Shown here one piece after another: positions 14,226 through 23,468 of a stretch of DNA of 51,735 nt; the stretch's first letter is position 1, and each line of letters starts with the position of its first letter. Under the pieces are notes generated by a model. That model was not told where the DNA came from. It was given only the letters and a program-made list of their open reading frames with translations, and searched no databases. The stretch covers positions 1 to 51,735 of the forward strand of contig JAJPGX010000019.1 in assembly GCA_021325595.1 (NCBI GenBank), given 5' to 3'. Source of the stretch: Nitrososphaerota archaeon (GTDB lineage Archaea; Thermoproteota; Nitrososphaeria; Nitrososphaerales; Nitrosopumilaceae). A program made the position numbers and the translations under genes.

Positions 14226-14831
14226 ATGAAAACTCATCAAGGCGTAGTTTTTCTCCAAAATGATCCAATATTAGGAAAAATTATCGAGCAGGTTGGCGAG
14301 TTCAAATTAAAAAAACACAATCATCATTTTGCGGTACTGGTAGAATCCATAATATCGCAACAGCTTGCAACAAGTGCTGCCGAGGCTATATTTGGAAGAT
14401 TCAAGGCACTTTATCCTGCTTTTCCCACCTCTGCAGATATTCTTTCCACACGCAAAACAAAATTACGCTCTGTAGGACTCTCAGGAATGAAGATAGACTA
14501 CCTTAAAGACCTCTCAAAACATGTTGAAGAAGGCAGACTTGAGATCAAAAAGTTACCAAAGATGAGTGATGATGAGGTAATATCGCAACTCACGCAGGTC
14601 AAGGGCATTGGAAGATGGACTGCAGAGATGTTTTTGATTTTTTCACTTGGAAGACTAGATGTATTTCCTGTAGGAGATCTTGGATTAAGAAAAGGTGTCC
14701 AGATGGCATTCTCGTTACAAGAGCTGCCAAAACCAAAAGAGACTGAAAAATATGGAGAGAGGTGGAGACCATATAGAAGTATAGCAACGTGGTATCTGTG
14801 GAAAAGTCTCCAGAAATTTGACAAGATTTGA
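14226..14831 (+). CDS. alkA: DNA-3-methyladenine glycosylase (AlkA-like HhH-GPD)
   Basis: The 201-residue protein matches the AlkA/HhH-GPD superfamily. 'VESIISQQLATSAAEAI' forms the DNA-contacting helix, and 'LTQVKGIGRWTAEMFLIF' is the helix-hairpin-helix. Its catalytic Asp is in 'FPVGDLGLRKG'. It removes alkylated bases to start base-excision repair. The start follows the transporter stop by two bases, so it is the last gene of the operon that begins at thpR. The mix of tRNA and metal-transport genes with a repair gene looks like chance clustering. Confidence 0.93.
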   Translation: MKTHQGVVFLQNDPILGKIIEQVGEFKLKKHNHHFAVLVESIISQQLATSAAEAIFGRFKALYPAFPTSADILSTRKTKLRSVGLSGMKIDYLKDLSKHVEEGRLEIKKLPKMSDDEVISQLTQVKGIGRWTAEMFLIFSLGRLDVFPVGDLGLRKGVQMAFSLQELPKPKETEKYGERWRPYRSIATWYLWKSLQKFDKI

Positions 14832-20823: not shown

Positions 20824-20837
20824 GATGATTTGGGGGT

Positions 20838-20893
20838 CTGGGTAATTCATGAGACCTGACTACAGATCTTCTTTGTGTTTACTTCCGAGACCT
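20838..20893 (+). repeat. Island repeat copy A (left end)
   Basis: A 56-base unit starting CTGGGTAATTCATGAGACCT and ending GAGACCT. It matches copy B (22348-22403) with two mismatches and is the inverted complement of copy C. The unit starts 15 bases after the PLP enzyme stop and ends one base before the stop codon of the minus-strand membrane gene. I read it as the left terminal repeat of a composite element. Confidence 0.85.
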
Positions 20894-20894
20894 A

Positions 20895-21368
20895 TTACAT
20901 CTTACAGGTGATCTTGACATTCTTTGAAGTATAGTATAATGATACACCGAGTGCTACTATTGCAAGTGTCTTTAATTCAAGACCTTGAAACGGAAGTAGA
21001 GCCAAAGCACCACCCAAACCAAATACGCCTAGCAATGGTGCTGTACATATAGGACATCCAGATGCAACAGCACCCGTAAAAGCACTGCATGCGTTAGAAG
21101 TTGCACCTTTTCCAAAACCCAAACCACCAGTCATTTGTTTTCTGCAAATTACCATAGATGTGTTTATTCCTGTTAGAATCGCTATTGCAGTTCCTAAAGT
21201 TATGGTAGTAACTGTAAACAGTATTCCGTAATTTTGTATGTATGCAGGCAATGGAGTAGGTGTAAAGTAAAATGTAAGAAGCCAGAATAAAACAGATAAA
21301 GTCACAGAGATTATAATTGCGACAAGAGCATAACGAGGTTTTTTTAATACGTTTAAAATTGTACTCAT
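20895..21368 (-). CDS. Four-helix membrane protein with GCPICTAP motif
   Basis: The 157-residue protein has about four membrane helices (about 13-33, 46-66, 97-125 and 132-148). Its centre holds Cys residues in 'GCPICTAPLLGVFGLGG' and 'MVICRKQMTGG', and the last residues are 'KITCKM'. Paired Cys beside membrane segments often bind metals or take part in thiol chemistry, as in Mer-type transporters, but I cannot assign a family. Its stop codon lies one base from copy A, and it is transcribed towards that repeat. It is divergent from the HxlR gene with the finger peptide between. I infer a metal, thiol or redox function under HxlR control. Confidence 0.75.
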   Translation of the reverse strand: MSTILNVLKKPRYALVAIIISVTLSVLFWLLTFYFTPTPLPAYIQNYGILFTVTTITLGTAIAILTGINTSMVICRKQMTGGLGFGKGATSNACSAFTGAVASGCPICTAPLLGVFGLGGALALLPFQGLELKTLAIVALGVSLYYTSKNVKITCKM

Positions 21369-21373
21369 TTACA

Positions 21374-21532
21374 TCACTTTAGAATGGCGTGCCTTGTTAT
21401 CTCAAGAGAACAACTATTGAACTTGCTACAGTGATTCTCACATCTTTCTGCTTGCGTGGAATCTTGGTATCCAAGCAGGCATATTTCACATAGGAAAACT
21501 TTGTCATTATTATGGCTTGATTCTTTTACCAT
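21374..21532 (-). CDS. Zinc-finger-like peptide of about 52 residues
   Basis: The frame contains 'FLCEICLLGYQDSTQAERCE' followed by His, Cys, then another Cys in 'FNSCSLEITRHAIL', so at least five Cys and two His could hold a metal. I place the start at the inner Met (21532) because the 12 residues upstream would run into the palindromic promoter shared with the HxlR gene; ATG at 21568 is the alternative. It lies five bases upstream of the membrane gene start and is most likely co-transcribed with it. This Cys/His pattern appears in small thaumarchaeal proteins of unknown function. Confidence 0.6.
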   Translation of the reverse strand: MVKESSHNNDKVFLCEICLLGYQDSTQAERCENHCSKFNSCSLEITRHAILK

Positions 21533-21538
21533 TTTATT

Positions 21539-21578
21539 ACTATGAAATTCAAAGTATTTAAAATACAAAGTTCATAGT
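21539..21578 (+). promoter_or_regulatory. Palindromic control region of the HxlR/finger divergent promoter
   Basis: ACTATGAA (21539-21546) and TTCATAGT (21571-21578) are perfect inverted arms. Inside them GTATTT (21554-21559), one A, and AAATAC (21561-21566) form a second inverted pair that also looks like a TATA box. A third ACTATGAA covers the HxlR start codon (21588-21595). The pattern suggests a dimeric regulator bound over a shared promoter, probably HxlR itself. Confidence 0.6.
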
Positions 21579-21590
21579 ATAGTAGTTACT

Positions 21591-21947
21591 ATGAAAGATC
21601 AAAGTAATACAATTTGTCTATGTCCACTTGACGGTGTAATAGATACAATAGGAAAAAAGTGGGGATTGCTGATAGTAAACGAGATAGGAAATCATGGACG
21701 ATTGCGTTACAATGAATTAATGTCAGAACTAAAAGAAATAAGCCCATCAACACTGGCTTCAATGCTAAAGGATTTGGAAAAACAAGAGCTAATTGAAAAG
21801 GAAGTTTTCAGGGAGATACCGCCAAGAGTTGAATACTCCTTATCTGCTAGAGGAAGGGAATTAAGAACTGCAATTATACCGCTTATCAAATGGGCGAGTA
21901 AGAAGGGAAATTATTCAGTACACTGTAGTTGTAGTTTGTTCAAATAG
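21591..21947 (+). CDS. HxlR-family winged-helix regulator
   Basis: The 118-residue protein has the HxlR fold: 'CPLDGVIDTIGKKWGLLIVN' at the start, the recognition region 'RLRYNELMSELKEISPSTLA', and the wing 'PRVEYSLSARGREL'. It has Cys at 9 and 11 and a CSC pair at the C-terminus ('HCSCSLFK'), which suggests thiol or metal sensing, as in HypR/YodB relatives. It is divergent from the finger peptide and membrane gene across a palindromic region, the classic layout for auto-regulation. The signal is unknown. Confidence 0.88.
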   Translation: MKDQSNTICLCPLDGVIDTIGKKWGLLIVNEIGNHGRLRYNELMSELKEISPSTLASMLKDLEKQELIEKEVFREIPPRVEYSLSARGRELRTAIIPLIKWASKKGNYSVHCSCSLFK

Positions 21948-21977
21948 ATTAGTTAACTAGAACTATTCTCAAAATCG

Positions 21978-22343
21978 CTATTGTTTACTGGCATTTTGAA
22001 TTAAGGTTATCCATTTGTTATTCCCTTCAATTTTAATTCCTGCCATGTCTGATGGTGTCTTTCGATCCAATGCCATGTGAGAGCGGATGAAGTTATGATG
22101 AATCTGCATACCTGAAAGTATTGGAGAATCAACCTTTTTCAGTGAACGCATTACCTTCTCACGATCACGAATTTCACCGTTCAATCGTTCCATCTTGTTA
22201 TTGTTCTTGTCACCATCAAAGTGAATATGGCGTATGTGTTCTGTTTTCTTGTCTAGAAAGTTTTTTTGCTTGTACTCGTTTTTCCAAGCATCCTGAAAGT
22301 TTCTTGCACCATCTGTAATCAAGACATTTGGCTTCTTTCCTGC
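21978..22343 (-). pseudogene. IS6-like DDE transposase, 5'-truncated fragment
   Basis: The remaining C-terminal part contains 'LITDGARNFQDAWKNEY', then 'NKMERLNGEIRDREKVMRSL' and 'IHHNFIRSHMALDRKTPSDM'. These are the second Asp and the Glu region of an IS6/IS240-type DDE transposase. The frame continues upstream through codons for 'GKKPNV' to about 22343, where repeat copy B begins, and no start codon is present, so the catalytic N-terminal part is missing. A TTG at 22322 would give a 114-residue peptide but it would lack the first Asp. It is inactive and marks the mobile origin of the island. Confidence 0.8.
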
Positions 22344-22347
22344 GGGG

Positions 22348-22403
22348 CTGGGTAATTCATGAGACCTGACTACAGATCTCCTTTGTGTTTACTTCCTAGA
22401 CCT
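22348..22403 (+). repeat. Island repeat copy B (internal)
   Basis: Same orientation as copy A, 54 of 56 bases identical. Its outer edge truncates the transposase frame, and its inner end contains the stop codon of the second membrane gene (22402-22404). It forms an inverted pair with copy C around that gene, so B to C alone could also move as a unit of about 790 bases. Confidence 0.85.
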
Positions 22404-23052
22404 AGTTTCTTTTAGTTTGTTTGTATGCTTCTATTGCTGTAATGGCAAAAGCCCCAGCAAGTAATGATAATGGAATTGATAACCACAAGGCATGTCTAAA
22501 GAATACAAGATTGACTGTTTCAGCACTTAAGATACATGCACTTTCTGCTGTAACTAAAACATAGAGGCTTGTTTTGATTATCTGCTTGAAATCAGATGAC
22601 TTGTGTAACTCGGGGATTTTCCTGACGCCTGTTGCAAAGTTTTTGAAAGTTGTTTTGATATTGGATACAAATCCCCTATGATCATCTTCTAAAACTGAAC
22701 AGCAACCATCACCCACCTTATCCAAGTTGTTTCTTCCAAGTATTGTAGCAAATGTAGTAAATCCTGCAAGACTATAACCCAAAGCGTATGACATTATGAT
22801 TGCAAATGGGGTCTTGAATCCAAAAATAAAGAAACTACTGTTTTGTCCTGTTTCAGCAGACAAAATACAAAGGATCTCAATACCTAATGCAGAAGCATAT
22901 AGTGTTCTTACATTACTAAAGAATTTGATACTTTGTCTTTGTTTAAGATGAATGTCTATACAACAACAATCATCTTTTATACAAATTTCACAATCTTCTT
23001 GTTTTACTTTGTTACAAACTTCAGGCACACAAAGGCAATCTACACACTTCAT
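22402..23052 (-). CDS. Cys-rich membrane protein with metal-binding-like N-terminus
   Basis: The 216-residue protein begins with a cluster of ten or more Cys in 32 residues (including 'MKCVDCLCVPEVCNKVK', 'CEICIKDDCCCIDIH'). It then has a membrane part of about four helices with a duplicated 'ILSAET' motif (around 63-68 and 173-178). The middle loop has another CC pair. The duplicated helices point to an internal repeat. Metal binding or thiol exchange is plausible, but I do not recognise the family. It sits alone between repeats B and C, and its stop codon lies in repeat B. Confidence 0.75.
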   Translation of the reverse strand: MKCVDCLCVPEVCNKVKQEDCEICIKDDCCCIDIHLKQRQSIKFFSNVRTLYASALGIEILCILSAETGQNSSFFIFGFKTPFAIIMSYALGYSLAGFTTFATILGRNNLDKVGDGCCSVLEDDHRGFVSNIKTTFKNFATGVRKIPELHKSSDFKQIIKTSLYVLVTAESACILSAETVNLVFFRHALWLSIPLSLLAGAFAITAIEAYKQTKRN

Positions 23053-23085
23053 GTTTTCAGATCAACGATTTCACTATTAAAACAT

Positions 23086-23137
23086 AGGTCTCGGAAGTAA
23101 ACACAAAGGAGATCTGTAGTCAGGTCTCATGAATTAC
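23086..23137 (-). repeat. Island repeat copy C (inverted, right end)
   Basis: Reverse complement of the core of copies A and B, from GTAATTCATGAGACC to CGAGACCT (52 bases). It carries the CTCC form like copy B at one variable site and the CGAG form like copy A at the other, so it is a third distinct copy. The outer flank differs from A and B, which marks the core GTAATTC as the probable element end. Confidence 0.85.
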
Positions 23138-23171
23138 ATAGAACACGATTTGGATCTAATTTATTAGATAG

Positions 23172-23468
23172 AAACCACATATTCTATGCACGGCATCTGC
23201 ATTAAATCCTGATTCACAGGATGCAATAAGTCGTCGAAAGGAATTCTACACTAGTGAGCATGTTGATATTTTTCTAAAACGGCACGGAGTACCAAAGAGT
23301 AGGCAAGCAATGCACAGCTTTGTTTCAATGGGACTTGGAAAAAACGATTCAAGTGTTGATTGGGATATTGTCAATGTATTATCACATGTGTATTTCCAGG
23401 TTCATCCACAGCAGATTAACATAAGAGACAAGGCAAATGGAAAGATGATTATCTCAATCAGAAAATAA
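23172..23468 (+). pseudogene. 5'-truncated gene remnant next to the island
   Basis: A 98-codon frame is open from 23172 to TAA at 23468, but an in-frame TAG precedes it and there is no ATG, GTG or TTG near its beginning. The peptide ('RKEFYTSEHVDIFLKRHGVP' and 'SMGLGKNDSSVDWDIVNVL') has normal coding composition. It lies 34 bases right of copy C, so its 5' part was probably lost when the island arrived. I do not recognise the original family. A short protein from the inner ATG is possible but unlikely. Confidence 0.45.

Follow-up and report, generated by a model that had tools for sequence, protein, structure and literature searches.

What are the three similar repeats that bound a short run of cysteine-rich membrane genes in an archaeal genome, and has the DNA between them moved? 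The window in which they lie is the whole stretch of DNA that was analysed, 51,735 nucleotides of contig JAJPGX010000019.1 from a Nitrososphaerota archaeon, whose draft genome is an assembly of 50 contigs. It contains three related repeat copies of ~62 bp each, A and B in direct orientation and C inverted (Table 1), which agree pairwise at 55-58 of 62 positions. A chance origin of the three copies is far outside expectation. A repeat-model search of the archaeon's own 1.64-Mb genome recovered A, B and C (E-values 4e-20 to 1e-18) and no further copies. The initial annotation of the locus had recognized this arrangement, but gave the repeat length as 52-56 bp. It had also noted that each membrane gene on the minus strand stops at a repeat copy or within one, which is confirmed for both genes. 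All parts of the cargo that it listed are present, except that the last membrane protein has 13 cysteines in translation rather than ten.

Table 1. Features of the island and of a related insertion site; positions refer to the window unless a locus is named.
Feature	Position	Strand	Basis or remark
Left target-site duplication, TGATTTGG	20826..20833	.	just past the PLP-enzyme stop codon (20823)
TIR A (assigned), outer left end of element	20834..20895	-	repeat comparison and model search
157-aa membrane protein, GCPICTAP motif	20895..21368	-	translation
Small Cys-rich finger-like ORF, 64 aa	21374..21568	-	true start probably an internal ATG
Palindrome between divergent genes	21538..21579	.	inverted repeat, 12-nt arms 92% complementary
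HxlR-family regulator, N-terminal CLCP motif	21591..21947	+	PF01638, 82 bits, E 2e-23
Truncated IS6/IS240-like transposase, C-terminal third	21978..22343	-	86% identity to residues 251-370 of the G032 protein
TIR B (assigned), end of putative nested cassette	22344..22405	-	tip is the first base past transposase homology
216-aa membrane protein, 13 Cys	22402..23052	-	translation
TIR C (assigned), outer right end of element, common to putative nested cassette	23084..23145	+	repeat comparison and model search
Right target-site duplication, CGATTTGG	23146..23153	.	flank comparison
Shared S25-like upstream site, insertion or remnants	L055 4151-6373; L289, L290, L309, L312, L317

The repeats as transposon ends

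A repeat model was built from sequence only and then run against the genomes of congeners, about a dozen of which contained related copies. In genomes G034 and G032 these copies formed inverted pairs, each flanked by an exact 8-bp target-site duplication (TSD). The G034 element is 2223 bp long, lacks a transposase and is flanked by GAAATTCT, while the G032 element is 5424 bp long, is flanked by TAAAATAA and has ends that are identical along 60 bp. The tips of the congener elements begin GGTGCTG and GGCTCTG. The G034 element is inserted upstream of a gene that we named ribosomal-protein-S25-like from its sequence. At the orthologous site, genome G018 contains GAAATTCT once only and therefore represents the empty site; when the G034 flanks are joined over one TSD, they align to G018 without a gap at the junction. 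The inverted pairs with TSDs and the empty site show that the repeat is a transposon end, and we assign A, B and C as terminal inverted repeats (TIRs) of an IS6-like transposon. The search for the repeat at other loci and for empty sites, which the initial annotation had proposed as a check, thus returned congener loci with 8-bp TSDs and one empty site.

One site in the promoter region of the S25-like gene is occupied in several Nitrosotalea species, by an insertion or by what remains of it, and is empty in G018. Elsewhere in the genus, TIR copies are mostly solo remnants, and partners for nine solo copies were looked for in the congeners and not found. Repeat matches inside coding genes (loci L014 and L017) were set aside as chance.

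In several genomes, most copies lie directly behind a stop codon and face the same way with respect to the gene (read from the sequence). Such a placement would also suit a host regulatory or RNA element at the 3' ends of several unrelated genes, for example a terminator, a stability element or a small RNA. This is extremely unlikely. Folding of the repeat is mostly not better than that of shuffled sequences, and a transposon end accounts for the empty site and for the exact TSDs of the inverted pairs. Together with the lack of an Rfam match and of a consensus structure, the TSDs and the empty site largely refute a 3'-UTR RNA element. The layout of a gene followed by a repeat, with unrelated genes at different copies, further resembles integron-like gene cassettes, in which the repeat would be an attC-type recombination site. 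Next to no probability remains for this explanation, which is refuted by the inverted pairs with 8-bp TSDs; in addition, the copies form no arrays, have GG..CC tips and enclose a DDE transposase in complete units. For repeats that are TIRs, the position at gene ends arises because the passenger genes reach right up to them.

A decayed and probably nested element

The family tip sets the outer bounds of the window element at 20834-23145. Its flanks, TGATTTGG and CGATTTGG, agree at 7/8 positions, and the calculated chance of a match of at least 7/8 is ~4e-4. One position of the TSD differs between A and C, and the tips at both outer ends are degenerate. TIR B begins at 22344, exactly where the transposase breaks off. 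The segment from B to C (22344-23145) encloses the Cys-rich membrane gene only and has no matching TSD of its own. We consider it very probable that the segment from A to C is a decayed, nested transposon, and that its family consists of passenger-carrying IS6-like elements.

As sequence comparison in congeners shows, an autonomous member of this family comprises a DDE transposase of ~370 aa and unrelated passengers between TIRs of ~60 bp, and duplicates 8 bp of its target on insertion. Members without a transposase were presumably moved by a transposase acting in trans, as their shared ends suggest. In the history that we propose for the window, an autonomous element with the HxlR/finger/GCPICTAP module would have inserted past the PLP-enzyme gene. 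A cassette with the Cys-rich membrane gene as its only gene between two TIRs would then have inserted into the transposase gene, after which recombination between the right TIR of the cassette and the outer right TIR may have deleted the transposase N-terminus. Three such steps would leave the repeats in the order A-B-C, with matching outer TSDs beside A and C but no TSD beside B.

Since A and B are direct copies, and IS6-driven structures typically contain IS copies in direct repeat (PMC7986276), the island could alternatively be a pseudo-compound transposon of the IS6 type or a product of IS6-type amplification. A and B would then bound a translocatable unit of 1.5 kb, and C would be a separate insertion. 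We regard this as unlikely, given that A and B are single TIRs rather than whole IS copies, that the TSD match flanks A and C and not A and B, and that the start of B coincides with the transposase break. A further explanation is that near-identical repeats joined unrelated pieces of the draft genome during assembly. The assembly consists of 50 contigs, and in none of the relatives examined do the two flanking genes lie side by side. Such an artefact is nevertheless very unlikely: repeats of ~62 bp are shorter than usual reads, the flanks on the outer sides form a TSD match, the tip of B falls precisely on the transposase break, and the join of the membrane gene to a TIR is seen again in G026.

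The PLP-enzyme gene of the left flank is present in 25 other congeners, and the island is absent wherever sequence downstream of it exists. The initial annotation had named the presence of the segment at the same place in all relatives as one of the observations that would together speak against its reading, and the congener PLP-enzyme genes show the opposite. The description of the island as mobile and composite in the initial annotation agrees with this absence, as well as with the TIRs of an IS6-like transposon and the congener loci with TSDs. In G024, G012 and G021, the right-flank gene is preceded by a glycosylase gene of AlkA type, a name given from its sequence. In the window, the AlkA-like gene is located at 14226-14831, ~8 kb from the small right-flank gene (23154-23468), with the island at one border. 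The locus is rearranged, in the lineage of either the window or the relatives. Since the relatives examined do not have the flanking genes next to each other, an empty site of the window island is not demonstrable in them, and the exact site was not found.

A transposase related to IS6

The transposase of the G032 element, encoded at L056 6165-7280, has 371 aa and contains a SWIM finger, a four-Cys ribbon and a DDE core of the IS240/IS6 type. The same element also encodes a zinc-ribbon-like protein and restriction-modification functions, namely a D12 DNA methyltransferase and an HNH endonuclease. Against the curated NCBIfam model for IS6, the transposase scores 117 bits (cut-off 125), and IS6 is by far its best model. 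The transposase is 25-27% identical to IS1216 and ISS1. These comparisons suggest a transposase that is related to IS6 without being filed as a standard member. The first catalytic Asp is missing from the fragment in the window. A search of the archaeon's own genome gave no intact transposase of this family, and the sole other match there is likewise a fragment. Given the truncation and this search result, the island looks immobile by itself at present.

Many congeners keep just the last ~90 residues of the transposase (from about residue 281), often in an open frame, for example at G026:C8:36779-37048 and G034:C24:1124669-1124926. The G026 piece sits within a TSD-flanked mini-element of 944 bp (L126 8658-9601). 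These C-terminal pieces reflect either repeated decay or the retention of a C-terminal piece. Transposase and TIR divergence were only weakly correlated (r 0.23, with at least one permutation higher), and we therefore make no claim of co-evolution between them. Single-sequence structure predictions, with mean pLDDT values of 58 and 38, were too poor for use.

Passenger genes and their probable role

The HxlR regulator resembles the redox regulators RrpA and RrpB beneath the cut-offs of both models (RrpB-like score 64 bits, cut-off 175). It has an N-terminal Cys in its CLCP motif and a divergent neighbour gene (read from the sequence), and the palindrome between the divergent genes is a candidate HxlR operator. 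The finger-like ORF matches DUF7128 weakly, under the curated cut-off. A survey of 300 genomes of the order found homologues of the GCPICTAP protein with 73-77% identity in no more than three congeners, with remote ones elsewhere. A divergent module of an HxlR gene, the finger ORF and a gene for a GCPxCTAP membrane protein is conserved in G006, G019 and G030, and in G019 it includes a thioredoxin-like gene. No copy of the window TIR was detected near these three modules. A second HxlR gene in the window's own genome (contig C45:8344-8703, L124) shares 79% DNA identity with the passenger HxlR gene and lies in a different setting.

Nine of the 13 cysteines of the 216-aa membrane protein, as counted from the translation, fall within its first 31 residues. 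Its homologues are scattered, being present in 41/300 genomes of the order, and a separate scan of named genomes with this protein gave no match. G026 encodes a homologue with 73% identity, and a TIR copy follows directly after the gene. In some genomes the homologues have cation-diffusion-facilitator-like, CsoR-like or metal-exporter-like neighbours, types that were assigned by reading the sequences and not by a family search. The passengers probably serve in metal or redox stress under a Cys-sensing HxlR repressor. A putative metal or thiol role is supported by the regulator like RrpA/RrpB in a conserved module, by the thioredoxin-like gene of G019 and by the neighbours of metal-transport type; in this context, a stress function is a reasonable reading.

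Related elements in other archaea

A search of named genomes with the G032-type transposase identified 192 loci that encode relatives, 80 of which were kept. Most of these belong to Thaumarchaeota, Bathyarchaeota, Methanoperedens and Methanoregula, with single Asgard, Thermoplasmata and nominally bacterial records. Inspection for complete elements covered 81 loci, including three from viral contigs, and 41 of the 81 yielded complete elements with exact 8-bp TSDs and lengths of 1970-5663 bp (median 3322 bp). None of the 41 was of bare-IS size, in a search that allowed elements down to 900 bp. In a subset of 57 loci, 39 passed a combined TIR and TSD test, compared with 0-1 when the TSD position was displaced.

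The ends were analysed in a set of 45 elements, from which duplicates were removed and to which elements of the window's genus were added. The tip GGNN[C/T]TG was found in 89/90 ends. The end word at positions 16-27 recurs further in, mostly at a distance of 26-27 or 35-36 bp, with a mean best match of 7.84/12; when words were permuted between elements, the mean was 6.7 and the maximum 7.11 in 500 permutations. This internal recurrence makes the ends bipartite. In many elements the ends are similar out to ~60 bp.

Elements in G032, G012, G007, G018, G035 and G026 contain a transposase and passengers between TIRs with a TSD, and nearly all complete transposase-bearing elements carry 1-5 passenger ORFs. 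Among 153 passenger ORFs of at least 70 aa (mechanical calls), 122 had no BLAST homologue in another element. The passenger families include methylases and restriction functions (N6 and Eco57I-type methylases, type I specificity proteins, GmrSD domains and HNH) as well as AbiV-HEPN, MazE-type antitoxins and proteasome-like hydrolases. The latter were an unexpected cargo and made up 4/149 scanned passenger proteins (for example, L102 6267-7247). We lean towards the view that archaea hold a large undescribed clade derived from IS6, with regular passengers, bipartite ends and passenger turnover, that acts as a general vehicle for defence and stress modules; the window would then contain two such elements fused.

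Two contigs classified as viral in IMG/VR (L245 and L246) contain complete elements of this IS6-like family, and phages or proviruses may be carriers. Transposase relatives are also present in two bacterial-labelled records, the gammaproteobacterium BBSC-SA02 (L196) and a bacterial MAG with a complete element (L232), which reflect either cross-domain transfer or contamination.

Comparison with known systems

A 2019 survey of thaumarchaeal mobile DNA describes the IS-like transposons as having 1-2 genes and states that none with a diverse passenger cargo had been detected in archaea (PMC6563490). The elements described here would fill this gap in several archaeal phyla, and are recognizable by their ends and target duplications. 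Their cargo of restriction-modification, antitoxin, proteasome-like and redox or metal-type genes would represent a concrete route by which archaea, ammonia oxidisers among them, exchange genes, and the intact elements at hand provide a set for transposition tests. Our literature searches, whose scope excluded most subscription papers and ISfinder, returned no description of this archaeal family. We provisionally consider these widespread passenger-carrying archaeal IS6-like transposons to be new and apparently undescribed.

Like IS6 (IS26/IS240), the elements have a related DDE core, GG tips with a CTGT motif and an 8-bp TSD. IS6 elements are ~0.8 kb long, with inverted repeats of 15-20 bp and 8-bp TSDs (PMC7986276, 2021). 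In contrast, the elements here are 2-5.7 kb long and carry passengers, their bipartite ends span ~60 bp, and their transposase of ~370 aa has SWIM and four-Cys fingers, compared with ~230 aa in IS6. The presence of transposition-unrelated passengers inside TIRs is shared with tIS, of which ISDsp3 is the IS6 example. However, the IS6 review lists a single passenger-carrying member (PMC7986276), whereas every complete transposase-bearing element found here is of the passenger size class. The G034 element and the B-C segment of the window resemble mobile insertion cassettes (MICs) in being TIR-bounded passengers without a transposase of their own. Unlike MICs, they are found in archaea and have the ends of an IS6-like family. 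Their shared ends suggest that they may be mobilised in trans. Finally, thaumarchaeal IS-like transposons and casposons occur in the same host group and likewise have TIRs and TSDs (PMC6563490), but casposons use a Cas1 integrase, whereas the elements here encode a DDE transposase.
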